This document shows, one piece after another, positions 40,170-56,018 of a stretch of 64,000 bases of DNA; positions within the stretch are counted from its first letter, which is position 1, and each line of letters begins with the position of its first letter. The DNA comes from Nitrobacteraceae bacterium AZCC 2146 (GTDB lineage: Bacteria; Pseudomonadota; Alphaproteobacteria; Rhizobiales; Xanthobacteraceae), in assembly GCA_036924855.1 (NCBI GenBank), contig JBAGRP010000001.1, positions 6,312,001 through 6,376,000 on the forward strand, in the 5' to 3' direction. The notes beneath the pieces were generated by a model. The model worked only from the letters and a program-made list of their open reading frames with translations. It was not told where the DNA came from and ran no database searches. The translations under genes and the position numbers were made by a program.

Positions 40170-43007
40170 ATGGACGCTGTATCCTTTGGGCCATTCCGGC
40201 TGTATCCAGCGCAACGTCTTCTTGAAAAAGGGGAAGACCCCGTCAAGCTGGGCGCCAGAGCTTTCGATATTCTATTGGCGTTGGTCGAACGCGCCGGAGA
40301 AGTGGTCGCTCACAAGGATCTCATTGCCAAGGTTTGGCCGAACGTCATTGTGGAAGAAATCAGTCTCCGCGTGCACATCGCTTCTCTGCGCAAAGCGCTC
40401 GATGGAGGACAATCCGGCGGGCGTTACATCACCAACGTGACTGGCCGCGGTTATTGTTTTAGCGCCCCTGTTTCGTACGAACGCTCCACGCCGGATGTCA
40501 AATCGCCGCTCGACACACCGATCTATAATCTTCCCCAACGTTTGGCTCACATGCGAGGGCGCGACGATACCGTCCGGTTCATCAGCGAAAAGCTCGTCAC
40601 CGAGCGTTTCATCACCATCGTTGGGCACGGCGGCATGGGCAAGACAACCGTCGCGCTGTCCGTTGCGCATGCGCTGTTGACCGAATTCAGCGGTGCTGTG
40701 TGTTTTGCGGACCTTGGGACGATCAGTGATCCGCGCCTACTTGCGGGCACCGTGGCGTCAGCGTTTGGCCTTCCCGTACAATCGGAAGATCCAATCCCCG
40801 CCCTCGTTGCTCACATTGGAGGAAAGCGGACACTTCTCGTACTCGATAGTTCCGAACATCTAATCACCGAGGTAGCCGCAATGGCGCAGAGGCTTTTTGA
40901 AGAGGCTCCGAGTCTGCACATTTTGGCAACGAGCCGTGAAGCGCTGCGCGCGCATGGGGAACACGTTTATCGGCTGTCGCCACTCGATAGCCCGCCTGAT
41001 CGCCAAGACATTACGGCGGACGAAGCGCTCGCGTTTCCGGCCGTACAAGTATTTCTTGAACGCGTAGCGGCCAACGGAATGCCGATACAGTTGACCGACG
41101 AAGACGCTCCGATTGTCGGAAGCATTTGCCGTAAACTCGGTGGCGTGGCGCTGGCCATCGAGCTCACGGCCGGTCGGGTTGAAGCATATGGCATACGGCG
41201 CACTGCGGAGCTGCTCGACAGCCAATTCTCTCTGCTTTGGCCAGGACGCCGGACTGCGCCGCCCAGACATCAGACCCTGAACGCAACGCTGGATTGGAGC
41301 TATAACCTGCTTTCCGATCTCGAACGGCTGGTGCTGCGACGATTGTCCGTATTCGTCGGCGGCTTCACCCTCGACGTCGCGCAGAAGATTGTCGGAACGC
41401 CCGATCTCGAAGAGGCCAAGGTCCATAACGCGATCGCGGAGTTGGTCGCAAAATCGCTTACCTCAACTGATATGTCTAGGCCGATCCCGCGCTATCGACT
41501 GCTCGATACCACACGTACCTATGCCTCCACAAAACTGAGCGATACTGGCGAAAGCGAGCTGTTAAGGCGGCGACATGCCCTTTGTTATCGCAACATTCTC
41601 GAGAACGCGGCGGATCAGGAGACTGTCTATCAAGACCATGCCGGCATAGCCGCCACAGACGTCGATAACATCCGGGCCGCACTGAATTGGGCCTTTGGCC
41701 CAAGCGGCGATCCATCGGTCGGCGTCGACTTGGCGGCTTATTCGGCATCTCTATGGTATGGCAAAGCGCTTTTGACCGAGTATCGCCACTGGGCAGAAGT
41801 AGCAGCGGCCGCGGCAGCAGCGGATACGGGCACTCCTCCAACGCAAAAACAGCTCTCCATACAGATGGCGCTCGCAAGTACCGTGCTGTTTACGAACGGT
41901 GCATCGGATCAGGTCAAAGTGTTCGGGGCCAAGGCCTTGGAGCTGGCTATCAGTCTTAACGATATAAAGGGGGAAGTATCCGCATATTTGGCCCTTTGGG
42001 GACAAGCGGTGCGGACGCCTTACTATCAAGAGGCATTAGACATTGCAGAAAGATGTGCCGACACGGCCAAGAAGATTGCCGATCCTGGACTCAGGTCGAT
42101 GGCGGAGTGGATGCTCGGCATAACCAAGCATCGCCTAGGATGTCATACGGAGGCCCGCCTGCATCTTCAGCGTTCGCTCTATACCGACACCGAAACATCC
42201 CGGCACGCGCAGCTCAGGCAAGTCGGCTATGATCGCCGTACCGACACCCTTGCTACGCTTTCCAATCTGCTTTGGCTTCAGGGATTGCCCAAGCAGGCGG
42301 AGAGAATGGGTGCGCGTGCGATCGAGACCGCAACGACGCTTGGTTTCCCCGTTCCCATTAGCGTGGCGAAGGCGTGGACCATCCTTAACAGATATCTATC
42401 GGGAATCGATATCGATGCCATCGAAAATGACGCGCTCGAACTTGCGGAGCATGGGAGAGCCCATGCTGCCGGCGGCTATCAGGGGATTGGTCTTTGTATA
42501 TTGGGGTTGTGCCAGGCCCAACGGGGGCAATATGACGACGCGCCGATGCTCGTCAGCGAAGGTCTCAAACTGCTTGCGGACGGCCAGTATGGAATCTTCC
42601 ATTCGGCGTTCCGTACGGAACTCATCCTGGCCGCAATCAATGCGGACCGGTACAACGACGCTTCAACCTGGATGGCGAAGATCGATGCGGAAGACCAGGG
42701 CCCCGAGCATTGGTGGACACCTGAAATCCTTCGCGCGAGGGGTGCACTTGCGCTGGGCGTGGATAAAGATGTCGCTAAAGCAGAAAGCCTATTTCTGCAA
42801 TCGATTGCGCTCGCGCAGAAGCAGGGGGCTCTTGCCTGGGAGTTGAGGACAGCGCTGGCTTTGAGTGAACTTTGGGCAAGCCGAGGTCGGGGGAAAGATG
42901 CGCTGACTCTGCTGCCCGCCATTTGTGACCGGTTCACTGAAGGGATCGAAACGGCAAATTTGTCGAAAGCTCAGCATCTCCTCGGCGATCTAAGATCGTC
43001 TGCTTAG
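40170..43007 (+). CDS. Winged-helix / STAND-type ATPase / TPR regulator
   Basis: The 945-residue protein joins an OmpR-type winged helix (residues 5-98, with L-R-V-H-I-A-S-L-R-K-A-L and G-R-G-Y-C-F), a STAND/NB-ARC-like NTPase (Walker A V-G-H-G-G-M-G-K-T-T at 151-160; Walker B T-L-L-V-L-D-S-S-E-H) and a long TPR-like helical region (about 450-940). Such proteins are transcription regulators that change state on ligand or nucleotide binding; some STAND NTPases are immune sensors. A paralogue with the same layout but a frameshift lies at 56193-59046. Repeat R1 copy C begins ten bases after its stop. The regulated genes are unknown. Confidence 0.88.
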   Translation: MDAVSFGPFRLYPAQRLLEKGEDPVKLGARAFDILLALVERAGEVVAHKDLIAKVWPNVIVEEISLRVHIASLRKALDGGQSGGRYITNVTGRGYCFSAPVSYERSTPDVKSPLDTPIYNLPQRLAHMRGRDDTVRFISEKLVTERFITIVGHGGMGKTTVALSVAHALLTEFSGAVCFADLGTISDPRLLAGTVASAFGLPVQSEDPIPALVAHIGGKRTLLVLDSSEHLITEVAAMAQRLFEEAPSLHILATSREALRAHGEHVYRLSPLDSPPDRQDITADEALAFPAVQVFLERVAANGMPIQLTDEDAPIVGSICRKLGGVALAIELTAGRVEAYGIRRTAELLDSQFSLLWPGRRTAPPRHQTLNATLDWSYNLLSDLERLVLRRLSVFVGGFTLDVAQKIVGTPDLEEAKVHNAIAELVAKSLTSTDMSRPIPRYRLLDTTRTYASTKLSDTGESELLRRRHALCYRNILENAADQETVYQDHAGIAATDVDNIRAALNWAFGPSGDPSVGVDLAAYSASLWYGKALLTEYRHWAEVAAAAAAADTGTPPTQKQLSIQMALASTVLFTNGASDQVKVFGAKALELAISLNDIKGEVSAYLALWGQAVRTPYYQEALDIAERCADTAKKIADPGLRSMAEWMLGITKHRLGCHTEARLHLQRSLYTDTETSRHAQLRQVGYDRRTDTLATLSNLLWLQGLPKQAERMGARAIETATTLGFPVPISVAKAWTILNRYLSGIDIDAIENDALELAEHGRAHAAGGYQGIGLCILGLCQAQRGQYDDAPMLVSEGLKLLADGQYGIFHSAFRTELILAAINADRYNDASTWMAKIDAEDQGPEHWWTPEILRARGALALGVDKDVAKAESLFLQSIALAQKQGALAWELRTALALSELWASRGRGKDALTLLPAICDRFTEGIETANLSKAQHLLGDLRSSA

Positions 43008-43016
43008 TCCGCTGTT

Positions 43017-43120
43017 GGCACTTTTCGGACGTCATAACCGGACTCAGGAATATCTGCTGTTGCAGCAAGAGCGGAAGTTGTGATTGCGTCGCCCGACTTC
43101 CGAGTCTGACCCTGAGCGGA
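43017..43120 (+). repeat. Dispersed repeat R1, copy C
   Basis: It matches copies A and B through CTGCTGTTGCAGCAAGAGCG and continues into CGAGTCTGACCCTGAGCGGA like copy A. It starts only ten bases after the stop of the winged-helix/NTPase gene. Confidence 0.85.
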
Positions 43121-43274
43121 AGTCCTTTCCCAAACAGTCTGAAAATGGATCAGCTCTGCTGACGCTCCCTCGCTCGCTGGGCTCCGCGCAACACGGGGCT
43201 GCTTAGTGTTGAAGTCTTCTTGCTCAAGTGTTCCTCAAGATATAGCCTGCTTGTGAATCGGCGTAGCCTTTGAT

Positions 43275-43379
43275 CCCCGATCGGCGCCCAAGGCTAACCC
43301 CACCCGAGGCAACATAAGCGCTGTAAATTACTCCAGATTTTGCCATGGCACGGGGGTCAGTGTTGGACGCCGATCGGGG
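43275..43379. mobile_element. Short IS21-end element (MITE-like)
   Basis: The two ends CCCCGATCGGCGCCCAAGG (43275) and ...TTGGACGCCGATCGGGG (to 43379) are inverted relative to each other and resemble the ends of the IS21 at 16000-18412 (GATCGGCGTCCAA). Only about 55 bases separate them, so this is an internally deleted, non-autonomous derivative. It abuts and truncates the IS630 gene to its right. Confidence 0.68.
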
Positions 43380-43380
43380 T

Positions 43381-43812
43381 CAACATTCGGAGCCGAAACA
43401 CAGCTGGAGGACGCTGACCTTCCTCGCTGCTCTGCGTCATGACCGTATCGAAGCCCCTTGCGTGATCGACGGCCCGATCAACGGCGAAAGCTTCCTGGCC
43501 TATGTCGAGCAGGTTCTGGTGCCTGCGCTTAAGCCCGGCGACATCGTCATCATCGACAATCTCGGCAGCCACAAAGGCAAGGCCGTGCGCCGGGCCATCC
43601 GAGCCGCTGGCGCCAAGCTGTTCTTCCTGCCGCCCTACAGTCCAGACCTCAACCCGATCGAACAGGTCTTCGCCAAGCTAAAGACCTTGCTTCGTAAGGC
43701 TGCAGAACGCACCACTGAGGCTGTTTGGCGGCGGATCGGAGCCTTGCTCGCTTACTTCACACCGCTCGAATGCGCCAACTACTTCGCTAACGCTGGATAC
43801 GCTTCAGCATGA
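43381..43812 (+). pseudogene. IS630-family transposase, C-terminal fragment
   Basis: From [11 protein letters not shown] the frame encodes the DDE_3 core of IS630 transposases with the second Asp ([11 protein letters not shown]) and the Glu in [11 protein letters not shown]. The first catalytic Asp and the N-terminal HTH are missing because the left side is replaced by the IS21-end element; the frame's ATG (43345) belongs to that element. Only about 140 of some 330 residues remain. Confidence 0.85.
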
Positions 43813-43967
43813 AACAATCATGCTCTAGAACGCTTTCGACGTTCTCGGCGAGGATCGTCTCTCGGGTCTTCGCGCTATTCCATTCATCAGCTTTAAAAAA
43901 TAATTCAACGTTTATCTTTGACGCGTCAACCGAGCGCTCCAGACGATCGTATCATGTTGCGAACGGC

Positions 43968-44037
43968 CGCGTGTGGCGGATACTGTTGAAAAGGTCGAAA
44001 ATCTATCGGTCAACAAAATCTCGCTAAAACCCGCGTT
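43968..44037 (+). repeat. Dispersed repeat R2, copy 2
   Basis: It shares TACTGTTGAAAAGGTCGAAA and CAAAATCTCGC with copy 1 at 608-678, in the same orientation. A 5'-truncated kinase fragment starts at its right edge, mirroring the situation at copy 1. Confidence 0.7.
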
Positions 44038-44263
44038 CGATCTCTCCAGCGATGCCGGCGGCTCGGATTGATCGTCCACGGGCTCGTAACCAATGCCGCG
44101 AAGCATGCGTGCTTCGAGGCGCGGACCGGAGAAATCAAGATTGTCCTGCCAACAGCCGTCCGGCGCGCAGGCGAAGCTCATCATCAATCATTTGACGCAT
44201 GATGCCGCGTCGCGCACGCAATCGAAAGCCGGATTGCGCGGGTGCGAGATTCTCACCGAGCAG
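44035..44263 (+). pseudogene. HWE/HisKA_2 histidine kinase remnant
   Basis: The frame L-Q-R-C-R-R-L-G-L-I-V-H-G-L-V-T-N-A-A-K-H-A is the N-box of an HWE-type histidine kinase ATPase domain (normally V-H-E-L-V-T-N-A). The next strand (G-E-I-K-I-V-L) follows, after which frame is lost; a G-box-like end (G-C-E-I-L-T-E-Q-L-A-G) can be read in another frame, running into the converging gene on the opposite strand. Everything upstream of the N-box is missing at repeat R2. Confidence 0.65.
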
Positions 44264-45196
44264 CTAGCTGGGCCGGGGGATGCCAAAGAGCGCGCTCGCA
44301 TCGTTGCGTCCGAGTCCAAGAATGGCATTCAGCTTTTTCCTCGTGAGGAGGGGCGCGTTCGCCCGTCGCCGTTCATCGTGATTGCCTCCATTGTGCAGGA
44401 AAAGAGCATGAACATGGCCGGCCGAACGTTTTCCCCCGTATTGAAAAGCGTTCTCAAGATACGCAGACGGATCAGCCTGCTCTTCGATGAGAAACCGCAT
44501 CAGGGAGACCGCATACACGCTGCCGTCTTGCAGGAGGAGAAGGTGTTCATCCAACGCCGTAACCAGTCTGTGCGTGCAGGCAATAAGGGTCGAGAGGTCC
44601 GATAGATTGGGTGGTTCACCTGCGTCAAACCTGGCAATCGCTGCAGCAATGTCCGCTCCCCCATGTTCTTTCTTGAAGAAGCCTGCCTTGGCGAGCAGCC
44701 CCTTCCGCGCTTTATGCGAGAGAGTATCCTTCGAACTTCGATGGACAAATCGGTTTCGCCATGTCGCCAGCAGTTCAATCGCAAAGACGTACTGCGCGGG
44801 CACCACCTTCGGATAGTGGCCACATAGGGAAGCTACGCGCTCAAAGAGGGTAGGCCGTCGTTCGAGCTTGGGGCGCCGGCGGCCATTCAGGTCGTCGTGT
44901 AGCCCTTCCGCGACGAGGCCTGGTATACGCGTAAGCACCCGCAAGTAGCGATCAAGCCCGTCTACGACTGCGACTATGGTGCTTCGTAGCGTGAAATGCC
45001 GCGTCTCGATCCATTCCGCGTTGGCCGCCGGCAGCGTCCAGGGCAGGACAAGGTCGGGTGGTCGCACGGGCGTTGCTGTTTTTAATGTCTCCAACGCCAC
45101 AAGCTGCGTATTCAAGAAACGGTTTGCATTGCCCGAGACCTGCCGGAACGCCATGAGGGCCGGAGTTATTTCAAAGGATAACGATGCTTCGCTCAT
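44264..45196 (-). CDS. HEPN-motif protein 1 (unknown function, candidate defence)
   Basis: The protein is 310 residues from ATG 45196 (322 from a GTG at 45232). It is mostly helical. Residues 147-152 (from ATG) read R-N-R-F-V-H within L-L-A-T-W-R-N-R-F-V-H-R-S-S, the R-N-x3-H signature of HEPN ribonucleases. The surrounding V-F-A-I-E-L-L-A-T-W helix is compatible with a HEPN fold. It lies 160 bases downstream of a second protein with the same signature and in the same direction. I do not recognise a named family. HEPN proteins are often toxins or abortive-infection nucleases; that role here is inference. Confidence 0.65.
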   Translation of the reverse strand: MSEASLSFEITPALMAFRQVSGNANRFLNTQLVALETLKTATPVRPPDLVLPWTLPAANAEWIETRHFTLRSTIVAVVDGLDRYLRVLTRIPGLVAEGLHDDLNGRRRPKLERRPTLFERVASLCGHYPKVVPAQYVFAIELLATWRNRFVHRSSKDTLSHKARKGLLAKAGFFKKEHGGADIAAAIARFDAGEPPNLSDLSTLIACTHRLVTALDEHLLLLQDGSVYAVSLMRFLIEEQADPSAYLENAFQYGGKRSAGHVHALFLHNGGNHDERRRANAPLLTRKKLNAILGLGRNDASALFGIPRPS

Positions 45197-45356
45197 ATTC
45201 TTCTTTGCCGTGCCATGCCAAAGTCCGAGCACCGGTATCGCTCGCGTGTCCCGGCGATCGCGTGCTCGTGGATAGGCTCCCGGCGAGCAATGACCTGCTC
45301 ACTATCGCGGAGCACGTACCGCATCTTACCACGGCCGTCCGCAGCCTAAAGCTGTA

Positions 45357-46694
45357 TTAGAGCGCTGTACCCGCAAATTTCGCACCAGGCGGGAAGACCG
45401 CGTCATGGTATCCGCCGACATGCGAGATATACCGGCCCTTGTAGCCAATAGCCGTGAACAGGAAGCGAACTGCCACTTCCCGTACGATCGTGACATGCGT
45501 CCAAAGATCGGCATCCGTGTCCTGGGCATCTTCGTAATATTGTCCCCGGTGGACGACTTTGTCGCGTGCCCGCTTCGCCGCTTTCAGGCTGGCCGGGTCG
45601 ATACCATCGAGCGGAATTTTCCAGCGCGCGGCGAGAAGCTCAAGTTTACACAGCAGCGAACGCCGGTTCAGGTCGGCCAGCTTCTCGTTGAGTTCGCGTG
45701 AGGCATCATCCGCCAGCGCCGCCGCCCATTTCCCGAGGCACGCCTTTATCACAGAGAGAAGCACGCGCCGCGTCTTGTCGAATTGCGCGCGTGGCAGGAT
45801 CAAGGCTTCGCCGGGCTCAACGTTTGAATCGATCAAGTTTTCGAGCGCCGTCGTCGCATTTACGAGCCGCATCTCGTTATAAGTAGCCTCCATCGCAAAC
45901 CATTCGATCGCGAAGAACAGATGCTTCACCACGATAGGCGGAGAGAAATGCGACCGGACGGCGGCCGCAAAAATGGCGTCATGCGCGAGGAAGTGGAAGA
46001 CAGCCATGGTACCGTTTCTCTGGCGCATTTGCGACCAGACCGTGACTTTGCTCTCGGTGCCGGCGATGTATTCAATAATCGGTGCGCGCAAGAGCGATGC
46101 CGTCGCGAAAGACATGATCCGCCGGACATGTTCGAGAAGCTTTTCACTTTCGGTGCGCCACTGGGCAGCGTCGGGCGGAGGTTCGGCCGCTTGAACGACC
46201 AGCCAGCCATCCGCAGCATCGTCTTCGTTGTTGGCTTCGTGGGGGCCATTCATTTCCATGCGGCCCAAGGCACATTCAGCGTGGAGGGAGCCGAAGTTCC
46301 TAAAGCCCTTGAGTCGCATGCGTAGCGCGGGTAGCGGGAATGGCTCCTTCAGGGTGTAGCGGAGAACGGCCTTTTGGCATCGCGCTTCCGAAGTGAAGCG
46401 CGTGCCTGACGCATCGGAGGCCGTGCCCAGACTGGAAAAGAATAAATGCTCGGTTTCGAACCTTGCGCCGTCTTCCGACAAGGCCTTGAACGAAAAATGG
46501 ACGATGTCGCCCCTGTCGTCGTGCCAGGCAGTGAGGATGAATCGCGATTGGGCCGAAAGCGGGATAGGGGCGAACTCAAAGATCAGCTCACCGGAGGAAT
46601 CGATGCTGATCGTGGCCGAGGCTTCAACCGATTCCGCCCCCAGCGAAAACGTGCCTAAAAATAGCTTCGGTTCGGCGAGGGGTGTTCCTGTCAT
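45357..46694 (-). CDS. HEPN-motif protein 2, ApeA-like layout (candidate defence)
   Basis: The 445-residue protein has an N-terminal beta-rich half (L-F-L-G-T-F-S-L-G ... F-I-L-T-A-W-H-D-D-R-G-D-I-V) and a helical C-terminal half. Residues 377-382 are R-D-K-V-V-H in A-K-R-A-R-D-K-V-V-H-R-G-Q-Y-Y, the R-D-x3-H motif of HEPN nucleases. A beta-rich sensor followed by a C-terminal HEPN domain is the layout of ApeA-type abortive-infection proteins; direct similarity could not be tested. The RBS is weak (AGAGACGAG). It precedes HEPN protein 1 in the same direction and probably shares its transcript. Confidence 0.7.
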   Translation of the reverse strand: MTGTPLAEPKLFLGTFSLGAESVEASATISIDSSGELIFEFAPIPLSAQSRFILTAWHDDRGDIVHFSFKALSEDGARFETEHLFFSSLGTASDASGTRFTSEARCQKAVLRYTLKEPFPLPALRMRLKGFRNFGSLHAECALGRMEMNGPHEANNEDDAADGWLVVQAAEPPPDAAQWRTESEKLLEHVRRIMSFATASLLRAPIIEYIAGTESKVTVWSQMRQRNGTMAVFHFLAHDAIFAAAVRSHFSPPIVVKHLFFAIEWFAMEATYNEMRLVNATTALENLIDSNVEPGEALILPRAQFDKTRRVLLSVIKACLGKWAAALADDASRELNEKLADLNRRSLLCKLELLAARWKIPLDGIDPASLKAAKRARDKVVHRGQYYEDAQDTDADLWTHVTIVREVAVRFLFTAIGYKGRYISHVGGYHDAVFPPGAKFAGTAL

Positions 46695-46964
46695 GACTCG
46701 TCTCTAGCTGGCGAAGCCCGTTCGGTCCTGTGCGCCTTCGCTCACACCACTAATCGATCGAATCCATGCGCCAATTTTTGCGTTGTGCGCGGCAGTCTAT
46801 CGGGCCCTCGGCTCGGGATTTGTAAGGAAAGAGTGGAAAACTATCCAGTCTTCAATTGGCCAGGAAATGGAAATTGATCCAATTAATTTGTGGGGGACAA
46901 CCGCGAGCCGACGGTCTGAACAAATTCTCGAAATCATTATTGTCGACTCGCGGTCGAACCGCTC

Positions 46965-47648
46965 CTAGCGAAGCGCGCCAGTTGGCTGCTTAATTTTGGA
47001 CATGAACCGCCTGCACAGATAGCGGTTTGGGTCTTGGATCTTTTGGTTGACGTACAAATAAACTAGCGTGTTGGTGAAGTAAGATTGCTTCCAATTGTCT
47101 TCGAGCGCCTCCGTGTACGGGCAGACCGAATTATAAAACGTGATCATGCTTTCGCGCATGCTGTTGGAAATGGTCTGATCATCGCAGGCAGTTTGCTGAA
47201 TGCATCGCGTCACGACTTCGAAAAATTCTTCAATTTTGATAATATTGTCTGTTGCGGCTTCCTTGTCCTTTTCTTTGATTGCCTCCACAATCAGAGGTCG
47301 CGCGACTTCAAACAGATTCGCGAAACCGGAATCTTCGTTTGGATCGTAACCGGGGATTTGGGTCTTAGCCTTTTGCACAGCGTTGTATTGAGTGATCCGA
47401 TACTGTCCAACAAGACGGTACAAGTCGAGATCGATATACTTAGTCACAAATTGCGCGGAAAGGTTGACTGCGTTGTTGCGATCGGCGTCCTTGATTTGTT
47501 GAACGGTGAAGAAGAAGCCAACGCCCACCAAGGCCGCTTGGGCCCAGGTTGCAAGCGACGCATTGTTTAAAACGGAGGCGAATCCTCTGACGATGGACCA
47601 TAACAATGCTTTAAAGCCCATCCAAGCAATTAGCACCCGGGGGGGCAT
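46965..47648 (-). CDS. Membrane-anchored protein of unknown function
   Basis: The 227-residue protein has one clear transmembrane helix (L-A-T-W-A-Q-A-A-L-V-G-V-G-F-F-F-T-V) at about residues 32-50. A Gln/Asn-containing helical cytoplasmic or periplasmic part follows (N-L-S-A-Q-F-V-T-K-Y-I-D-L-D-L-Y-R), with some resemblance to DUF4760-like proteins. Four Cys residues lie in the second half. The start is uncertain (no clear RBS; ATG 47621 possible). The base composition is visibly A/T-richer than the rest of the window, indicating transfer. It is 270 bases upstream of the HEPN gene pair and in the same direction. Confidence 0.6.
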   Translation of the reverse strand: MPPRVLIAWMGFKALLWSIVRGFASVLNNASLATWAQAALVGVGFFFTVQQIKDADRNNAVNLSAQFVTKYIDLDLYRLVGQYRITQYNAVQKAKTQIPGYDPNEDSGFANLFEVARPLIVEAIKEKDKEAATDNIIKIEEFFEVVTRCIQQTACDDQTISNSMRESMITFYNSVCPYTEALEDNWKQSYFTNTLVYLYVNQKIQDPNRYLCRRFMSKIKQPTGALR

Positions 47649-48309
47649 GCGGGATATTGGTCAGGTTGGCTGCTTCTTGGAAAGGCGGACACCGAGCTGC
47701 TAAAAACCAGCGCCAAAGCAATAATTCCAAAACAAACAAAAATTGCGAGGTAAACCCGGGTCATGATCAAAACCCCTGACTGTTTGAAAACTTTAAATAG
47801 CATATCCAAAAAAATGGTGTTTCAAGGCCTCGGCCTAGCGCCTTTTGGTCGTTCGCGGGATAATTTCAAGAGTGCAACGTGATATTTCGATCAAGCTAAC
47901 TCTCAAGAATCTGACGCTCGACGACCGTGCCAAACCATCAATCAGGAAACGATCCGCTCGCTGCTTTGTATTCGGCCAGTACAGCAGAAATCCACCAACC
48001 TGCGACCCGTCTGTCTCGATTCTAGGCTGGCTAGAAAATGGCAAATTCTTAGCCAGTCGCGTGGGTCGACAATCTGACTGGGCTGATTGCTTGTCGCACA
48101 CAATCTCAAGCGATCTTGCCAGAGGCATGTTGGTCAAGGATTGCAAGCATACGGCTGCCTAGCTGAAGCGCCGAGATTTGGCGCACTGTGCTGCGCGCGT
48201 CGCGCTTCGACTTCATCCGGCCTTCAACCTCAACCTAGGGACCAGGACCGCGGTCGAAGGCCGCCGGTCTTTTCCCTATGTTTGTTCATGCCGATTGCGT
48301 AATCACCAA
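47649..48309. other. A/T-rich intergenic region
   Basis: About 660 bases with no confident gene. Two mutually antisense frames at 47835-48162 (about 105 codons each) lack good starts and recognisable families. The low G+C matches the preceding membrane gene, so this may be the edge of the acquired island. Confidence 0.4.
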
Positions 48310-48590
48310 GGTGATGGGCTGAAGGACGATCCCCTGGTTATTAAGCTGGGTCGCACGCTTAAACTGTCTAATTCAGCGGCTGGCCGGATATTTCTAGCTC
48401 ACTCCGACGCGGATTCTGTGCGTAGGTTGCTCGCTGCCGAAATCGAACGTGGAGAGCGACCGCCGCTACGGCTAGAAAGCTTCGGCATGAGGTCCAGGAG
48501 CAAGGCTATGCGAGGGCCCACAGCTTGGCGTATGCCGGGCTCGGAGACAGAGGCGTTGTTTCTCGCTCCCCGTTCGTTGGCATAATCTGC
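48310..48590 (+). pseudogene. IclR-family regulator remnant (effector domain)
   Basis: L-G-R-T-L-K-L-S-N-S-A-A-G-R-I-F-L-A-H is the start of an IclR effector domain. About 45 residues later and one frame away one reads E-V-Q-E-Q-G-Y-A-R-A-H-S, the next conserved IclR segment, so a frameshift lies near 48480. The DNA-binding half is missing. It stands close to the AAHS/IclR catabolic locus and may be an older regulator of it. Confidence 0.55.
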
Positions 48591-48794
48591 TCTAGAGGTG
48601 CGCGCGTGCGATCACTCTTGAGGCTCGAGAAGGGGTCGATTGTTTCACCTTCTCGACAAGTCATCCAGCATCGATAATATGATGCGGCCGGTGACATACC
48701 GTTGAAATCCCATTTAGTGCTGAATCGCGGTTATATGCCCTTTCAATTTCCGACACACGAAGTGTGGTTTCGGGTCCGCGCTTAGCAGTCATAC

Positions 48795-50159
48795 TCAGGA
48801 AACGCGTCGTGAACTCCGACCCGCTAGTCGATTTAACGCGAACGCTGCGACGCAAGCGCATAGAGCCGGGATTGCCGCTGTCATGAACAGGGTTTCCACA
48901 CCAACATGGTTGGCGATCATGATGCCGCCGACCAGTGGACCGACGATGGATCCGGCGCGCCCGATGCCCAGGGCCCAACCGACGCCGGTGGAACGCATTG
49001 TTGTTGGATAATAGGTCGCCGTCAGCGCGTTGGAGGCGATTTGCCCGCCGACGATGCAGAAGCCGGCGCAGAAAATTGCCAACGTGGCGAGCGCGATCGA
49101 ATGACCGGAGAAGCCGATCCCGGTGATGGCGACTGCCGCGATCAGATAGGTCATCGCCAAGGCACGGAACGAGAAGCGATCGATGAAGTTGCCGAGCGTG
49201 AAAGTCCCGATCACCCCGCCCACCTGCAGCATCGCGCCGATCGCCGCGGCCATCGATATGGAGGCGCCGAGATCGTTGAGCACGGTGGGAAGCCAGTTCG
49301 ACAGCAGATAGAGATCAAGCAGGCTCATGAAGAAGACCACCCAGAACAACAGCGTGGTTGCCGTCCGGCCTTCCTTGAACAAATGTGCTACGGGAATGCC
49401 CACCAGTTTCGGCTCGTTGACGACGAAGCGCGTGGCCGGCGCAAACGACGCCGTCGGCGCGATTTTCTTCAGCAAATTGCCCGTCTCTGCATTGTCGCGT
49501 CCGGTGAGGGCGAGGAAGCGGATCGACTCCGGCAGCATCTTTGCGAGGAACGGCGCGTAGAGCAGCGGTGCAACGCCGCCGATCAGGAAAATCGATCGCC
49601 AACCGAACATCGGAATTAGGGCAGCTGCCAACAATCCGCCAAGCGCGGCGCCGACGGAAAATCCGCAGAACATCGCCATCACCATGGTGGCGCGACGGCG
49701 ATGCGGGCTGAATTCCGATGTCAGTGCAACCGCGTTCGGCATTGCGCCGCCCAGCCCGAGGCCGGTCACGAAACGAATTCCGATCAGCCAGTAGATGTCA
49801 TGTACGAAGACGGTGGCGAGGGTGCCGATTCCGAATGCCACGGAGCTGAGCAGGATGATCCGTTTGCGGCCGATGCGATCCGCGATCGGCCCGAAGATCA
49901 ACGCACCGATCATCAAGCCAAAAAGTCCCGCGCTGAACACGGGTCCCAATGCGCCGCGCCCGAGGTTCCATTCCCGCGCGATCTCCGGCGCGACATAGCC
50001 GATCGCCTGGGTATCGAAGCCATCGATGAACAATACCGCGGCGCACAGGATCAGCAGGCGGATCTGAAACCGGCCGACCGGCTGAGCGTCGATAAAGCCG
50101 GCGACCTCGATGGTGTGATCCGGCGAGACGCCGGCTGCGGGTGTTGTATTGATTGCCAC
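48795..50159 (-). CDS. Aromatic acid:H+ symporter-family MFS transporter
   Basis: The 454-residue, 12-helix MFS permease has the AAHS signatures D-G-F-D-T-Q-A-I-G-Y in helix 1, G-P-I-A-D-R-I-G-R-K-R between helices 2 and 3, and a second such loop (G-N-F-I-D-R-F). AAHS members import aromatic acids such as 4-hydroxybenzoate, protocatechuate or benzoate. The best start is GTG 50159, preceded by GGGGGG. It diverges from the IclR gene, and an IclR-type palindrome lies 55 bases upstream of its start, so it is likely regulated together with the hydroxylase operon. Confidence 0.9.
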   Translation of the reverse strand: MAINTTPAAGVSPDHTIEVAGFIDAQPVGRFQIRLLILCAAVLFIDGFDTQAIGYVAPEIAREWNLGRGALGPVFSAGLFGLMIGALIFGPIADRIGRKRIILLSSVAFGIGTLATVFVHDIYWLIGIRFVTGLGLGGAMPNAVALTSEFSPHRRRATMVMAMFCGFSVGAALGGLLAAALIPMFGWRSIFLIGGVAPLLYAPFLAKMLPESIRFLALTGRDNAETGNLLKKIAPTASFAPATRFVVNEPKLVGIPVAHLFKEGRTATTLLFWVVFFMSLLDLYLLSNWLPTVLNDLGASISMAAAIGAMLQVGGVIGTFTLGNFIDRFSFRALAMTYLIAAVAITGIGFSGHSIALATLAIFCAGFCIVGGQIASNALTATYYPTTMRSTGVGWALGIGRAGSIVGPLVGGIMIANHVGVETLFMTAAIPALCACVAAFALNRLAGRSSRRVS

Positions 50160-50213
50160 TCGATCCCCCCAAGACCACCCCGGCGGCAAAAGCCGGAGTG
50201 AAATAAAATGCAA

Positions 50214-50232
50214 AATCTCTTATATTGAGATT
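50214..50232. promoter_or_regulatory. Putative IclR operator 1
   Basis: The imperfect palindrome AATCTCTTATATTGAGATT lies between the divergent transporter and IclR genes. A near-identical palindrome lies in front of the hydroxylase gene (51149-51167). Shared consensus AATCTC-N7-GAGATT supports binding by one dimeric regulator, most simply the IclR protein encoded between them. Confidence 0.7.
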
Positions 50233-50356
50233 ATTCTGTACTATGCGCCGAGCGGGCGCGGTATTTCAAGGTTGATCTTGTTCGGATCGGGAAAACTATC
50301 TGCTGTAAGCCTGCGCAAGCGTGGCCGTGGGCCAGGCGGCGCTCGAAACTGAAGCG

Positions 50357-51145
50357 ATGTCAGACCATGTGGATGCGAGTATGAAGCCCACCAACAGCCT
50401 GGAAAGGGTGCTGGCGGTCCTCGAGGTTTTTTCCGAGGAGCGGCTCGAATGGATGCCCGAGGAACTGATGCAGGAGCTCGGCTACAGCCGGCCGACGCTC
50501 TATCGCTATCTGAAGACCCTGAAAGATGCCGGCTTCCTGATGTCGACGCGCAATTCCGGAGTGACACTCGGTCCGAAAATCGTCGAAATGGATTATCTGG
50601 CGCGCCGATCGGACGTGCTGGTGCTGCACGGCCTGCCATATCTCAAGGAACTGACGGGGGCTTATTCCTGCACGGCCATGCTGCTGCGCTGGTACGGTAA
50701 CAAGATCCTCTGTGTGGCCTCCGAATCGTCGACCAAAAATCCGGTCAGCTCCTACCCAAGGGGGCGGCCCATGCCACTGGGGCGCGGCGCGATTGCGCGC
50801 TCGATCATGGCGTTTCTGCCTCGTCCCCGGCTGCTGCCCTTGATCGAACGCAACCTCGACGATCTGCGCTCGGTTGGCCTCGGCGATAGCACGCAGGACG
50901 TTCTGAAGAGCCTGAAAAAGGTACGCAAGGCTGGGTTTTCCGTGGCTTATGGCGAGGTCACGCCTGGCGCGGTCGGCATTGCCGCGCCGATCCTTGATGA
51001 TCGCCGCTATCCGATCGCCAGCATCTGCGTCACCATCGCCGGCAATCTGGTGACGGGAGCGGAGATCGATGAGGTCAGCGCCAGAGTGGGCCGCGTGGCG
51101 CTGCAAATCGCGACCGAACAGACTTCCGCAAGGCGGGATATTTAG
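50357..51145 (+). CDS. IclR-family transcriptional regulator
   Basis: The 262-residue protein has an N-terminal winged HTH (A-V-L-E-V-F-S-E-E-R, then Y-S-R-P-T-L-Y-R-Y-L-K-T-L) and an IclR effector domain (R-P-M-P-L-G-R-G-A-I-A-R-S ... A-I/V-G-I-A-A-P-I-L-D). IclR proteins commonly control aromatic catabolism. It is divergent from the transporter and directly upstream of the hydroxylase gene. Palindromes on both sides of it (50214 and 51149) suggest it controls transporter, itself and the operon. ATG 50357 is used; an upstream GTG is possible. Confidence 0.92.
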   Translation: MSDHVDASMKPTNSLERVLAVLEVFSEERLEWMPEELMQELGYSRPTLYRYLKTLKDAGFLMSTRNSGVTLGPKIVEMDYLARRSDVLVLHGLPYLKELTGAYSCTAMLLRWYGNKILCVASESSTKNPVSSYPRGRPMPLGRGAIARSIMAFLPRPRLLPLIERNLDDLRSVGLGDSTQDVLKSLKKVRKAGFSVAYGEVTPGAVGIAAPILDDRRYPIASICVTIAGNLVTGAEIDEVSARVGRVALQIATEQTSARRDI

Positions 51146-51148
51146 AAA

Positions 51149-51167
51149 AATCTCATATAATGAGATT
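51149..51167. promoter_or_regulatory. Putative IclR operator 2
   Basis: The palindrome AATCTCATATAATGAGATT starts four bases after the IclR stop and 117 bases before the hydroxylase start. It differs from operator 1 at only a few central positions. A TTGACT hexamer begins five bases downstream, so the operator may overlap or flank the operon promoter. Confidence 0.72.
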
Positions 51168-51283
51168 ATCCTTGACTTTGGGGTTGCCTATTCTCATTTT
51201 CTGGGCGCGGCCGCCGTATCGGCCGACCGTCCAATTGCTGATCTGCGAGGGGCGACACAGCCCTCGCCAACCGACAAAGAAAA

Positions 51284-52879
51284 ATGAACACGCCCAGTGA
51301 ATCCCGCACGCAGGTTGTCATCGTTGGAGGCGGCCCGGTCGGCCTCGGGCTCGCAATCGAGCTTGGTCAGCGCGGCATCCGCTGCGTCCTGGTTGAGCGC
51401 TACGTTAGTCCGCAGCCGATTCCGAAAGGTCAAAATCTGACCCAGCGAACGCTGGAGCATTTTTATTTTTGGGGCGCGGAGCCTGAACTTCGTGCCGCGC
51501 GGACCATTCCACGCGACTACGGCATCGGCGGCATGACTTCCTACGGCACGCTGCTAAGTGGCTATAAATATGACTGGCTGCAGCGCGAACTGGTGCGGCC
51601 GTATTATTTCACGGACAATGAGCGGTTGCCGCAATATGCGACCGAAGCCGTGCTGCGGCACCGGGTAAGCCAACTGCAAAGCGTGGAGACGGTTTATGGT
51701 TGGGGTGCGGAAAGTCTCGAGCAGGACGCACACGGCGCGCAAGTGGTCATTGCCGAACGCAAAGGCGACCGCCGTCGCGTCGTGCAGGCCGACTATGTGG
51801 TCGGCTGCGACGGCAGCCGCTCGTTGGTCCGCGAAGCCGCCGGAATCACGCAGACCATGTCCGATCATGACCGGCTAATGGTACTGCTGGTTTTTCGTTC
51901 GACCGGACTACACAAATTGCTGGAGCGGTTTCCGAACAAATCTTTCTACAATGTGCTGCATCCGGATCTGAAGGGCTACTGGCAGTTCTTTGGTCGCGTC
52001 GATCTCGGCACCACCTGGTTTTTTCATGCGCCTGTGCCGCTCGGCACAACCAAAGATAATTTCGATTTCCGAAGCTATCTCCACTCGGCGGTCGGCGAGG
52101 AATTCGACGTTGAATTCGAACACACCGGATTCTGGGATCTGCGCGTCGCCACCGCGGATCAGTATCGCAAGGGGCGCGTTTTTATCGCCGGCGATGCCGC
52201 GCACAGCCATCCGCCTTATGGCGGCTACGGTATTAATACGGGCCTCGAAGACGTCGCCAACCTTGGCTGGAAGCTCGCCGCGGCGCTGCAAGGCTGGGCT
52301 GCACCGAGTCTACTCGACTCTTACGGCGAGGAGCGACGACCGGTATTTGCCTCGACGGCACGCGACTTCATCGAAAAAGCCATCAAGAGCGATAAGGAAT
52401 TTCTCGTCGCATTCGATCCCGCGATCGACAAGAATGCTTTCGAGGCCGAATGGTTGGCGCGTTCATCGGGCGCGCGTTCCGAGGTTAATTCGTTTGAACC
52501 GAATTATGAAGGTTCTTCGCTTGTCGCAGGGCCGCCCGGTAGCGTCTGTAGCGCGATCGGATCGCATGAATTCGCGGCACGGGCCGGTCATCATCTGGCG
52601 CCACGTCAGCTTGCTTCCGGCCGCAATGTTTTCGAGGAACTGGGCACCGGCTTCACGCTGATCGATCTCGGCGCAGCCGAGTCCGCCGTTGCGGAGCTCA
52701 AACGCACGGCCGAAGCGAGCGGCGTGCCGCTCAGGGTTGTCCGGGACGACCGCGTCGAGAGCCGCGAGTTCTACAAGGCGACCCTGATTCTGGTTCGGCC
52801 CGACCAATTTATTGCGTGGGTCTCCGATGACGGTGCGAAAGTCCCGGCTGATGTCATAAGCCGCGCTGTCGGTGGCTAA
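51284..52879 (+). CDS. FAD-dependent aromatic monooxygenase (PHBH/PheA type)
   Basis: The 531-residue group-A flavin hydroxylase has the FAD motif V-I-V-G-G-G-P-V-G-L-G, the DG motif V-G-C-D-G-S-R-S, and the GD motif F-I-A-G-D-A-A-H-S-H-P-P. A C-terminal thioredoxin-like domain is present, as in phenol and 3-(3-hydroxyphenyl)propionate hydroxylases. It inserts oxygen into an aromatic ring using NAD(P)H. It is the first gene of an IclR-flanked operon continued by the ThDP enzyme and a Bug-type binding protein. The substrate cannot be told. Confidence 0.92.
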   Translation: MNTPSESRTQVVIVGGGPVGLGLAIELGQRGIRCVLVERYVSPQPIPKGQNLTQRTLEHFYFWGAEPELRAARTIPRDYGIGGMTSYGTLLSGYKYDWLQRELVRPYYFTDNERLPQYATEAVLRHRVSQLQSVETVYGWGAESLEQDAHGAQVVIAERKGDRRRVVQADYVVGCDGSRSLVREAAGITQTMSDHDRLMVLLVFRSTGLHKLLERFPNKSFYNVLHPDLKGYWQFFGRVDLGTTWFFHAPVPLGTTKDNFDFRSYLHSAVGEEFDVEFEHTGFWDLRVATADQYRKGRVFIAGDAAHSHPPYGGYGINTGLEDVANLGWKLAAALQGWAAPSLLDSYGEERRPVFASTARDFIEKAIKSDKEFLVAFDPAIDKNAFEAEWLARSSGARSEVNSFEPNYEGSSLVAGPPGSVCSAIGSHEFAARAGHHLAPRQLASGRNVFEELGTGFTLIDLGAAESAVAELKRTAEASGVPLRVVRDDRVESREFYKATLILVRPDQFIAWVSDDGAKVPADVISRAVGG

Positions 52880-52885
52880 GGTTAC

Positions 52886-52909
52886 ACCGCGCGGCGAAAG
52901 CCGCGCGGT
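52886..52909 (+). promoter_or_regulatory. Intercistronic hairpin with GAAA tetraloop
   Basis: A perfect 10-bp stem ACCGCGCGGC / GCCGCGCGGT closed by a GNRA loop (GAAA) starts seven bases after the hydroxylase stop and is followed by an A-rich stretch. It could be an mRNA-processing or stability element, or a partial terminator lowering expression of the downstream genes. Confidence 0.5.
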
Positions 52910-52967
52910 TCCCTATAAAAAGAAAACAAGCCGAAATTCGGCACAGGAAACACAGGGAATCAAGGGC

Positions 52968-54701
52968 ATGAGCCGTCATAGTGCTGCGCATTATTTCCTC
53001 GAAGGTCTCGTCGACCTCGGCGTCGAATTCATCTTCGCCAATCTCGGCACCGACCACGTCTCCTTGATCGAGGAGATTGCGCGCTGGGATCGCGAGGGCC
53101 GCAAGCATCCCGAGATCATTCTCTGTCCGCATGAGATCGTCGCCGTTCACATGGCCGGCGGCTACGCGCTGGCAACGGGACGAGGACAGGCGGTATTCGT
53201 GCATGTCGATGCCGGAACCGCCAATGCCTGCATGGCGATCCAGAATTTGTTTCGCTACCGATTGCCCGTGATGTTGTTCGCTGGCCGTGCGCCCTACACC
53301 CTGCACGGCGAGTTGACGGGATCGCGCGATACCTACGTGCATTTCGTCCAGGATCCCTTCGACATCGCCAGTATCGTGCGGCCCTACGTCAAATGGGAAT
53401 ATTCGCTGCCGTCCGGCATCGTGGTGAAGGAGGCGCTGACCCGCGCCGGCGCCTTCATGCATAGCGATCCGCCGGGGCCCGTCTATATGATGCTGCCACG
53501 CGAGACGCTGGCCGAAGAATGGGACGAGGCGCAGATGCCAGCCTATCATCCTGCGCGCTATGGCTGCGTGACGGTCGGCGGCATCGATCAGGCGCGCGTC
53601 GACACCATTGCCACCCGACTGATGGAGGCGGAAAACCCGATTGCGCTGACGGCCTATCTCGGTCGCAAGGCAGAGGCCGTCACAGCGCTGGAAAATCTGG
53701 CGCTTGCCTGCGGCATTCGGATCGCGGAGTTCAATTCGATCGATCTCAATATTTCTCAGGATTCGCCTTGTTTCGCTGGCTTCGATGCGTTGCCGTTGCT
53801 CGAGCAGGCCGATGTCGGGTTGTTGCTCGACACCGACGTTCCCTTTGTACCACAATACGCCAAGCGCGTCGAAGCGATCGACTGGATCCAGATCGACGTG
53901 GACCCGTTGAAGTCGGATTTTCCGATGTGGGGATTCCCCACGGACATCCGCGTGCAGGCCGATTGCGCCACGGTACTGCGGCAGGTGCTCGAGGCGGTCG
54001 AAGCGCGCGCCGATGACGGCTTTCGCAAACGCGTCGCCAATCGCATCGCAAGTTGGGGTGCCGCGCGCGACGCCGTCGCCAAACGCCGCACGACCGCCGC
54101 TGCTAACAAGGGCGTGCCGGGCGCGCTCAGCGCGGCCTACTTGTTTGCCACTCTGAACGGCAAACTTTCCCAGGATGATATCGTCGTCAACGAAGCAATA
54201 CGTAATGCGCCGCTGGTGCAGGAACAGATCCATCGCACACAGCCGCACAGCTATGTCGGACTCGCTGGGGGCGGGCTTGGCTTCAGCGGCGGCATGGCCC
54301 TGGGGCTGAAGCTGGCGCAGCCGGAGCGGCGTGTCGTGCAGATCATCGGCGATGGCGCGTTTCATTTCTCCTCGCCGGACTCGGTGTTCGCCGTTGCTCA
54401 GCAATACCAAATTCCGATCCTGACCGTGGTGCTCGACAATGGCGGCTGGCAGGCGGTCAAATCGTCGGTGCAGCGGGTTTATCCGAAGGGGGTTGCCGCC
54501 GAGACTAATTCGTTCCAGTCACAGCTAAGGTCAGGCCGGCAGGGCGAACAGCGCCGTTTTTCGGACATCGGGCGTGCTTTCGGGGCCCATGGCGAACTCG
54601 TCAGCAGACCGGATGAACTTACTGCGGCAATCGATCGCTGTCTTGCCTCGGTCGATGGCGGCATCGCCGCGGTGCTGCATGTTCAGATTACGCCGCTGTA
54701 G
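52968..54701 (+). CDS. Thiamine-diphosphate enzyme (benzoylformate decarboxylase/ALS-like)
   Basis: The 577-residue ThDP enzyme has the three usual domains: N-terminal PYR (H-E-I-V-A-V-H-M-A-G-G-Y-A with the cofactor-activating Glu), middle domain and C-terminal PP domain (I-I-G-D-G-A-F-H-F-S-S-P-D-S ... V-V-L-D-N). Family members decarboxylate or ligate 2-keto acids. Its place after an aromatic hydroxylase suggests a 2-keto acid intermediate is processed. ATG 52968 is used (AGGGAATC upstream). Annotated relatives are generally just called ThDP-requiring proteins, so the reaction is open. Confidence 0.9.
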   Translation: MSRHSAAHYFLEGLVDLGVEFIFANLGTDHVSLIEEIARWDREGRKHPEIILCPHEIVAVHMAGGYALATGRGQAVFVHVDAGTANACMAIQNLFRYRLPVMLFAGRAPYTLHGELTGSRDTYVHFVQDPFDIASIVRPYVKWEYSLPSGIVVKEALTRAGAFMHSDPPGPVYMMLPRETLAEEWDEAQMPAYHPARYGCVTVGGIDQARVDTIATRLMEAENPIALTAYLGRKAEAVTALENLALACGIRIAEFNSIDLNISQDSPCFAGFDALPLLEQADVGLLLDTDVPFVPQYAKRVEAIDWIQIDVDPLKSDFPMWGFPTDIRVQADCATVLRQVLEAVEARADDGFRKRVANRIASWGAARDAVAKRRTTAAANKGVPGALSAAYLFATLNGKLSQDDIVVNEAIRNAPLVQEQIHRTQPHSYVGLAGGGLGFSGGMALGLKLAQPERRVVQIIGDGAFHFSSPDSVFAVAQQYQIPILTVVLDNGGWQAVKSSVQRVYPKGVAAETNSFQSQLRSGRQGEQRRFSDIGRAFGAHGELVSRPDELTAAIDRCLASVDGGIAAVLHVQITPL

Positions 54702-54773
54702 CGGCAGAGACCGTCAATCGCCACCAATAAAGTGCACGCCACGATGCACATGACCCAGGGAGGAATTGAAGCC

Positions 54774-55745
54774 ATGAAGAGTCTTTGCCTCATCATGCTC
54801 GTTGCCATTTGCGCCGCTTATTCCAGCCTTACGTACGCCGCCGAGGACGTGAAATATCCGACCCGGGCCATTCACATCGTCGTCGGCTTTACGCCAGGTG
54901 GAGGCAACGACATCATCGCCCGCATCGTCGGGCAGAAGCTGTCCGAAAGCCTCGGCCAGCCGGTGATCATCGACAATAAGCCCGGTGCGGGTGCGATCCT
55001 CGCCACGGAATATGTCGCGCGGGCGGAACCGGACGGTTACACGCTGCTGGTCGGCGCCAGCGGCGCCATGGTAGTCAACCCGGCGGTCTATGAGAAGTTG
55101 AACTACGACACTCTGCGTGACTTCGTTCCTGTTTCCGAACTCGGATCGTTTCCCCTGATCCTGATCGTCAATACAGCATCGCCGTTCAAGTCGGTGTCGG
55201 ACCTTGTCGCTTATTCCAAAGCGAATCCGGATAAGGCGAACTATTCGAGCTCGTCCGCCGCATTTCAGCTGGCAACGGAATTGTTCAAGCAGAAAACCGG
55301 CGCGAAGATGCAGATGATTCCATACAAGGGCGCTAATGATTCCGTGACCGCCGTGATCGCCGGCGAGGTGACTGCGACGATCGCCGATGCCGGCCCGGTG
55401 TCGGGGCAGGTCAATGGCGGCCAGGCCCGCGCGCTCGCAGTTGCGGCGCCGAAGCGGGTGGACGATCTGCCCGATGTGCCGACGATGAAGGAAACGGGCA
55501 CCGACGTCGAAGTGGTGCTGTGGAGTGGTGTTTTCACGCCCAAAGCGACGCCGCCCGCGATCGTCAAGAAGCTGCAAGACGAGTTCATCCGCATTGCGCG
55601 GTTGCCCGACGTCATCTCGCGCCTCAAGCTTCTGAACATCGAGTCGATCGGTAACTCTTCGGAAGAGTTTTCGCGCGTCATCGCAGCCGATCTCGAACGG
55701 TGGGGCGCTGTTGCGCGCGCCGGCAATATCAAGATGGCGCAATAA
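54774..55745 (+). CDS. Bug-family (TTT) periplasmic substrate-binding protein
   Basis: The 323-residue protein has a signal peptide ending near T-Y-A-A-E and the Bug/TctC fold: I-V-V-G-F-T-P-G-G-G-N-D (phosphate-like loop binding a carboxylate), D-N-K-P-G-A-G-A and P-D-G-Y-T-L-L. It captures a carboxylated solute, probably the aromatic acid or a product, but no TctA/TctB membrane genes are adjacent; Bug proteins are often orphan. GGAGG precedes ATG 54774. It follows the ThDP gene by 72 bases in the same direction. Confidence 0.93.
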   Translation: MKSLCLIMLVAICAAYSSLTYAAEDVKYPTRAIHIVVGFTPGGGNDIIARIVGQKLSESLGQPVIIDNKPGAGAILATEYVARAEPDGYTLLVGASGAMVVNPAVYEKLNYDTLRDFVPVSELGSFPLILIVNTASPFKSVSDLVAYSKANPDKANYSSSSAAFQLATELFKQKTGAKMQMIPYKGANDSVTAVIAGEVTATIADAGPVSGQVNGGQARALAVAAPKRVDDLPDVPTMKETGTDVEVVLWSGVFTPKATPPAIVKKLQDEFIRIARLPDVISRLKLLNIESIGNSSEEFSRVIAADLERWGAVARAGNIKMAQ

Positions 55746-55767
55746 TGGTCGCTGGGGAGGCGAGGAC

Positions 55768-56018
55768 ATGACCGAGCGGCTCAAGGCCGATGTTGTGGTG
55801 GGCGGCGCGGGGCGGGTTGACGCTGGATGAATTTGGCCTGGCGTGGCGCCGATGTCGTCGTGCTGGAATTTTATGCGCAGGGCGAGCCGCCGAGCGTCAA
55901 GTCGAACCACGTCTCGGCGCGCTCGATGGAGATATTTCAACGGCTCGGTGCGGCCAGGAAAGTTCGAGATGCCGGTCTGCCGGCCTTCGTTCGGCAATCG
56001 CTCTACGCTCAATTGTGA
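55768..56018 (+). pseudogene. FAD monooxygenase, 5' fragment with frameshift
   Basis: ATG 55768 (GGGGAGG upstream) opens M-T-E-R-L-K-A-D-V-V-V-G-G-A-G; the frame is lost in the glycine loop (stop at about 55828) and resumes in another frame as M-N-L-A-W-R-G-A-D-V-V-V-L-E then S-N-H-V-S-A-R-S-M-E-I-F. This is the N-terminus of a second FAD aromatic hydroxylase; after about residue 85 nothing follows. A second hydroxylase for the same operon has thus been lost. Confidence 0.75.

Follow-up and report, generated by a model that had tools for sequence, protein, structure and literature searches.

In the account given in a survey of HEPN proteins, ApeA proteins begin with a mostly-beta domain of about 300 amino acids (aa), to which a HEPN domain with an active motif is joined on the C-terminal side, and their genes are located near restriction-modification and defence genes (PMC3710099). 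A review table gives the HEPN domain PF18735 for PD-T4-2, PD-T4-5, PD-T7-3 and ApeA (PMC10952713), and the main text of a 2026 survey of bacteriophage exclusion (BREX) systems, in which ApeA is not mentioned, describes stand-alone HEPN RNases within or adjoining the BREX core genes as auxiliary effectors (PMC12839542). We compared with these systems a block of three minus-strand genes, A, B and C, in a stretch of 64,000 nucleotides from Nitrobacteraceae bacterium AZCC 2146 (contig JBAGRP010000001.1, positions 6,312,001 to 6,376,000), here called the window. A sequence-only reading of this DNA had proposed an undescribed defence system in which A and B, each with a HEPN motif, would form a heteromeric or sensor/effector RNase pair with C as a membrane partner. 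We find that A and B are two real HEPN-motif proteins and that B comes from a divergent ApeA-like family that is worth adding to defence models; B is a divergent form of a known kind and not a new system. The explanation that we consider likely is that B acts on its own as a divergent effector of ApeA-like type, that A is a separate HEPN-fold protein, and that the two came to be adjacent by accident at an insertion-prone site.

44264-45196, minus strand: gene A, an open reading frame of 310 aa counted from its ATG
45357-46694, minus strand: gene B, an open reading frame of 445 aa
46965-47648, minus strand: gene C, an open reading frame of 227 aa

Gene A has an alternative start further upstream, a GTG at 45232, which would give a protein of 322 aa. 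The sequence-only reading had placed the HEPN pair at the correct coordinates and had identified both motifs correctly.

HEPN motifs and the ApeA layout of gene B

The motifs are R147-N-R-F-V-H152 in A and R377-D-K-V-V-H382 in B, and we regard them as above chance because of their conservation within each family, the bare pattern being weak evidence. The loose pattern R[ND]x3-5H is common, occurring in 9 of the 47 open reading frames of at least 150 aa in the window and turning up in 25% of shuffled A sequences and 20% of shuffled B sequences (2000 shuffles), and the strict pattern R[ND]x[FVIL][VA]H, which is found in just A and B among the same 47, was picked after both motifs had been seen. 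Aligned together, all of the 38 proteins found for the A family share 7 invariant columns, including W146, R147, N148 and H152, and these four residues are still fixed when six members of the family are aligned with five further full-length relatives; the same residues are seen at these positions in a sixth relative of shorter length. For B, 52 sequences (the query and 51 chosen out of 119 other listed matches) share 37 invariant columns with R377 and H382 among them, and 13 divergent relatives share 11 (M1 included), among them R377, H382 and G384. Both families carry the conserved R-x4-6-H motif of the HEPN superfamily.

The structure model of B (predicted local distance difference test score, pLDDT, 89.5) places its strands within residues 7-220 and a helical half at residues 238-416, with the R377-x4-H382 motif at the end of a helix spanning 367-383. 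The model thereby agrees with the ApeA layout that the sequence-only reading had ascribed to the larger protein, a beta-rich N-terminal half followed by a helical C-terminal half with the HEPN motif. The helical half is seen in the model, and the fold search covered little past residues 7-224 and barely reached it. The likeness is to the published description of the ApeA layout, and there is a difference in size, in that the N-terminal domain of ApeA is given as about 300 aa (PMC3710099) whereas the beta-rich part of B ends near residue 220.

A further difference from ApeA is found in the family models, where some relatives of B match and B itself does not. The query matches no family at a meaningful level in Pfam, PADLOC or NCBIfam, and against PF18739 (HEPN_Apea), which has a curated cut-off of 24.4 bits, it stays below detection. 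At E<=0.1, PF18739 is matched by 9 of the 52 B family members and 5 of 8 distant relatives, and among 7 further relatives scanned to E 10 by P0115 only. Two relatives pass the cut-off, P0115 with 25.8 bits and the protein at locus L017 with 27.7 bits, the latter being linked to B at E 2.8e-26 and 23% identity. The connection of B to PF18739 therefore runs via its relatives, and we call B ApeA-like rather than ApeA because the direct tests of membership do not reach B itself. A PF18739 search of the genome that carries B found no match, and the control genomes gave none either, so that this negative carries no weight. A relative 65% identical to B (P0018) is named 'ApeA N-terminal domain-containing protein' in one source; it matched no Pfam family, and no B protein scanned matched the Pfam family for the ApeA N-terminal domain, which we take to be PF18862. 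The PADLOC models gave a similar picture, with no match for the query and scattered matches only for the 52 B sequences (the best to PDC-M61A, two members, E 0.00063); of 12 divergent B sequences, three match the Cas13-ApeA model PDLC01679 (best E 0.0056) and one matches PDLC01680 (E 5.3e-05). Sequence searches of the PDB returned chance matches only.

The family comprises 250 proteins at E<=0.001 among 7996 candidates scored. Between B and its orthologue in Bradyrhizobium sp. WSM3983 (locus L004), the ratio of nonsynonymous to synonymous substitution rates (dN/dS) is about 0.12 (0.106/0.876), and gene B is therefore maintained by purifying selection. The invariant HEPN motif, the beta half joined to a helical half with the motif, the purifying selection and a patchy distribution carry our reading of B, and its defence-type context is frequent, not universal. 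B is best read as a predicted RNase effector, for which motif, layout and context point to a role in phage defence. In such an effector the N-terminal half would sense a phage-induced signal, the HEPN halves would dimerise and thereby bring two R-x4-H motifs together in an RNase site, and cleavage of RNA would stop growth or kill the infected cell, that is, cause abortive infection.

Gene A as a separate HEPN protein

A has a HEPN-like fold according to its confident structure model, for which HEPN proteins make up the eight best VIA-align rows. The matches cover residues ~10-223, with a C-terminal extension beyond, so that the helical fold typical of the superfamily surrounds the motif (W146-R147-N148-x3-H152); a check of this fold had been suggested in the sequence-only reading, and its outcome agrees with the motif. 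No family in Pfam, PADLOC or NCBIfam is matched by A at a meaningful level. The family resembles RiboL-PSP-HEPN (PF18735) in that 13 of its 38 members match weakly at E<=0.1 (best E 0.0022), and differs in that A itself has no match at the curated cut-off; one A-family member scanned against this model scores far below the cut-off.

A is a separate HEPN protein that is rare in the genomes sampled. It is probably an RNase of toxin type that was acquired separately, although we hold this with lower confidence than the reading of B. A narrower proposal, that A is the HepT-like toxin of a toxin-antitoxin module, with its antitoxin gene either adjoining or lost, is possible but doubtful. The best structural matches of A are indeed HEPN toxins of MntA-HepT type modules, and its distant relatives at L027 and L030 adjoin small genes that look helix-turn-helix-like by eye. 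A is, however, about twice as long as HepT, and no nucleotidyltransferase was found beside it. An MNT nucleotidyltransferase antitoxin adjoining A was found neither in B and C nor, to the left of A, in a 91-aa open reading frame and a transposase piece; none of these genes matches a nucleotidyltransferase family, and no systematic search for small partner genes was made. Residues ~280-310 of A form a C-terminal stretch that is conserved in close relatives and helix-turn-helix-like by eye, and the C-terminal ends of distant relatives are unlike it.

Neighbourhoods of the B family

Defence-type genes lie near four of the eight B loci in genome_contigs and include components of BREX and of cyclic oligonucleotide-based antiphage signalling systems (CBASS). 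At L004 (L004:4017-9326), models for TRIP13, HORMA, oligonucleotide cyclase and NucC match a group of genes that is presumably the make-up of type III CBASS; the B orthologue follows ~350 bp downstream and may be a second effector there or a mere neighbour. In an uncultured Chlorobiaceae (L005), a B-type gene stands between BrxC- and PglX-matching genes, 30 bp before the latter (L005:195-9679); by eye, the B-type gene comes after an AlbA/Schlafen-type gene. This placement is like that of the auxiliary HEPN RNases described in the main text of the BREX survey (PMC12839542), with the difference that the B of the window lies outside any BREX locus. At L011 the adjoining ATPase matches AriA, Old and GajA models, and at L010 an ATPase one gene away matches Ppl and mad3 models. 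These four loci place some B relatives beside defence-type genes, in support of this part of the sequence-only reading. At L006-L009 no defence gene was seen by eye, the neighbours there not having been profile-scanned.

Other B relatives have mixed surroundings. A truncated homologue with an open frame of 219 aa (L032:7968-8627, genome G384) lies amid nSTAND3 and NERD/NACHT genes, and the homologue at L031 (genome G343) is surrounded by a DUF5677 gene and large genes without a match. One of the proteins encoded at L031 (L031:4553-9310), of 1140 residues and matched by no Pfam family at E<=0.001, stops 18 bases short of the start called for the B homologue and is a possible operon partner there. 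The neighbours at L017 look by eye like metal transport and translation genes. Eight plasmid records match B, and among the five that were opened the neighbours were a TrlF family ATPase next to B in one, AbiEii and RES family genes in another, DUF262 and patatin-like genes in a third, and mostly hypothetical or unrelated genes in the other two. A single B relative (L053) was found in viral_contigs, and the phage records gave no match to A or B. No A was found in the plasmids, nor in genome_contigs and viral_contigs by one short motif pattern, which is a weak scan.

The absence of a visible defence-type neighbour at half of the genome_contigs B loci, and likewise at G030, would suit an alternative that gives B, as a HEPN protein, a housekeeping or RNA-processing role in the host and none in defence. 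We consider this improbable, since B is patchy, with three carriers among 391 genomes of the family (one of the three copies truncated) and one among 385 of the class, is carried on the eight plasmid records, and has relatives downstream of CBASS genes and in the interval from BrxC to PglX. The B family is mostly missed by current Pfam and PADLOC models although members adjoin BREX and CBASS genes; with the family included, models of defence genes would pick up ApeA-like effectors that have been overlooked. Its N-terminal half raises the testable question of what such sensors recognise. In our literature searches we recognised no paper on the B protein family or on the A-B pair.

Adjacency of A and B and the setting of the block

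A and B are on the same strand with 160 bp between their reading frames, both motifs are intact and conserved, and a comparison of the two profiles sets the motifs in register, though without significance (probabilities 4.1 and 0.6). These observations speak for the joint system of the sequence-only reading, one two-HEPN defence system with or without C, such as a heteromeric RNase or a sensor-effector pair. Occurrence elsewhere speaks against it and leaves it very unlikely. Samples that overlap partly, and in which the best few first-look candidates were scored in each genome, gave three genomes with A and three with B out of 391 for the family, five with A and one with B out of 385 for the class, and A in the AZCC 2146 genome only among 357 of the order; the family and class samples include this genome, which is the only one with both genes. 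The 17 same-genus genomes in the family sample have neither. Profiles of A and B run over all loci examined coincide in the own-genome loci only. No A or C was found within the stretches fetched at 17 places of B outside this genome (eight in genome_contigs, three further genomes with one truncated copy, five plasmids and one viral contig), nor any B or C at six places of A, some of the fetched stretches stopping at contig edges (L006, L007, L016 and L053).

The protein records point the same way. The longest contigs of 37 other A proteins and of 119 other listed B proteins (250 found) have no size in common, an indirect check in that the A contigs are 4 kb or longer in just 19 of the 37 cases. 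The closest relatives of A (41-84% identity) are protein records only, mostly from metagenomes, with five also at NCBI. The DNA shared between the window and L004, the closest B relative with DNA compared (82% protein identity), is confined to gene B (45370-46670). On the genome samples and locus scans together we reject A-B as a conserved operon, and because A and B are not side by side in those relatives that could be examined we read the two as chance neighbours in acquired DNA. Their adjacency is probably an accident of an insertion-prone site, there is no evidence for a joint A-B-C system, and the pairing is unlikely. The neighbourhood survey that the sequence-only reading had called for thus found the homologues apart, and B not always in housekeeping contexts. 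Less credible still is a recently assembled two-HEPN module, in which B as an ApeA-like sensor-RNase and A as a toxin-like RNase would act together, with C as a possible membrane part, in a group of bacteria whose close relatives have so far been met mainly as metagenome proteins.

The role of C as a membrane partner was not borne out, as no A or B locus fetched from outside the own genome contained C. Among all loci examined, a relative of C (hmmsearch) was confined to the own-genome loci, and C was rejected as a partner of A or B; the plasmids contained no C relative. C matches DUF4760 (PF15956) at 25.0 bits, right at the curated cut-off of 25. As to the membrane helix that had been assigned to it, C has a hydrophobic stretch at residues ~31-49, but the best 19-residue mean hydropathy of 1.49 is borderline for such a helix, and a second stretch at 5-23 scores nearly the same (1.48). 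A short open frame on the minus strand (47653-47765), which by eye resembles a signal-peptide protein, runs up to or into the start of C.

Two features mark the surroundings of the three genes.

43345-43812, plus strand: insertion sequence (IS) transposase remnant with a DDE_3 domain (Pfam)
48714, no strand: apparent right-hand edge of an acquired or variable stretch, where identity to the same-genus genome G008 begins

The same genome has six other listed places that match the DDE_3 remnant at ~80% identity, in agreement with the IS debris reported at the flank. G008 is 96.8% identical to the window across 48714-55886, and past 55886 only ~120 bases of its contig are left, without a match to the window. 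On this evidence, which comes from little sequence, an acquired or variable stretch appears to end on its right side at 48714. The idea of an acquired block fits a position next to IS remnants and an end where the identity to G008 starts. The block had also been described as A/T-richer than its surroundings. This holds for C (G+C 0.485), whereas A (0.578) and B (0.585) are only slightly below the whole window (0.604), and the left flank gene and the right flank have values of 0.573 and 0.600; because of these values C alone stands out. A search for insertion-end repeats in 42900-49000 gave nothing convincing, no Rfam family was found in 43000-49000, and promoter patterns (0 found against 2.4 in shuffles) and terminator patterns (5 against 4.9) did not exceed chance. 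Further to the left, the window encodes a 945-aa protein (40170-43007) for which the Pfam matches are a Trans_reg_C domain, an NTPase region of STAND/AAA type and TPR, and sequence resembling this protein, as judged by eye, is present to the right of the block at 56193-58067.
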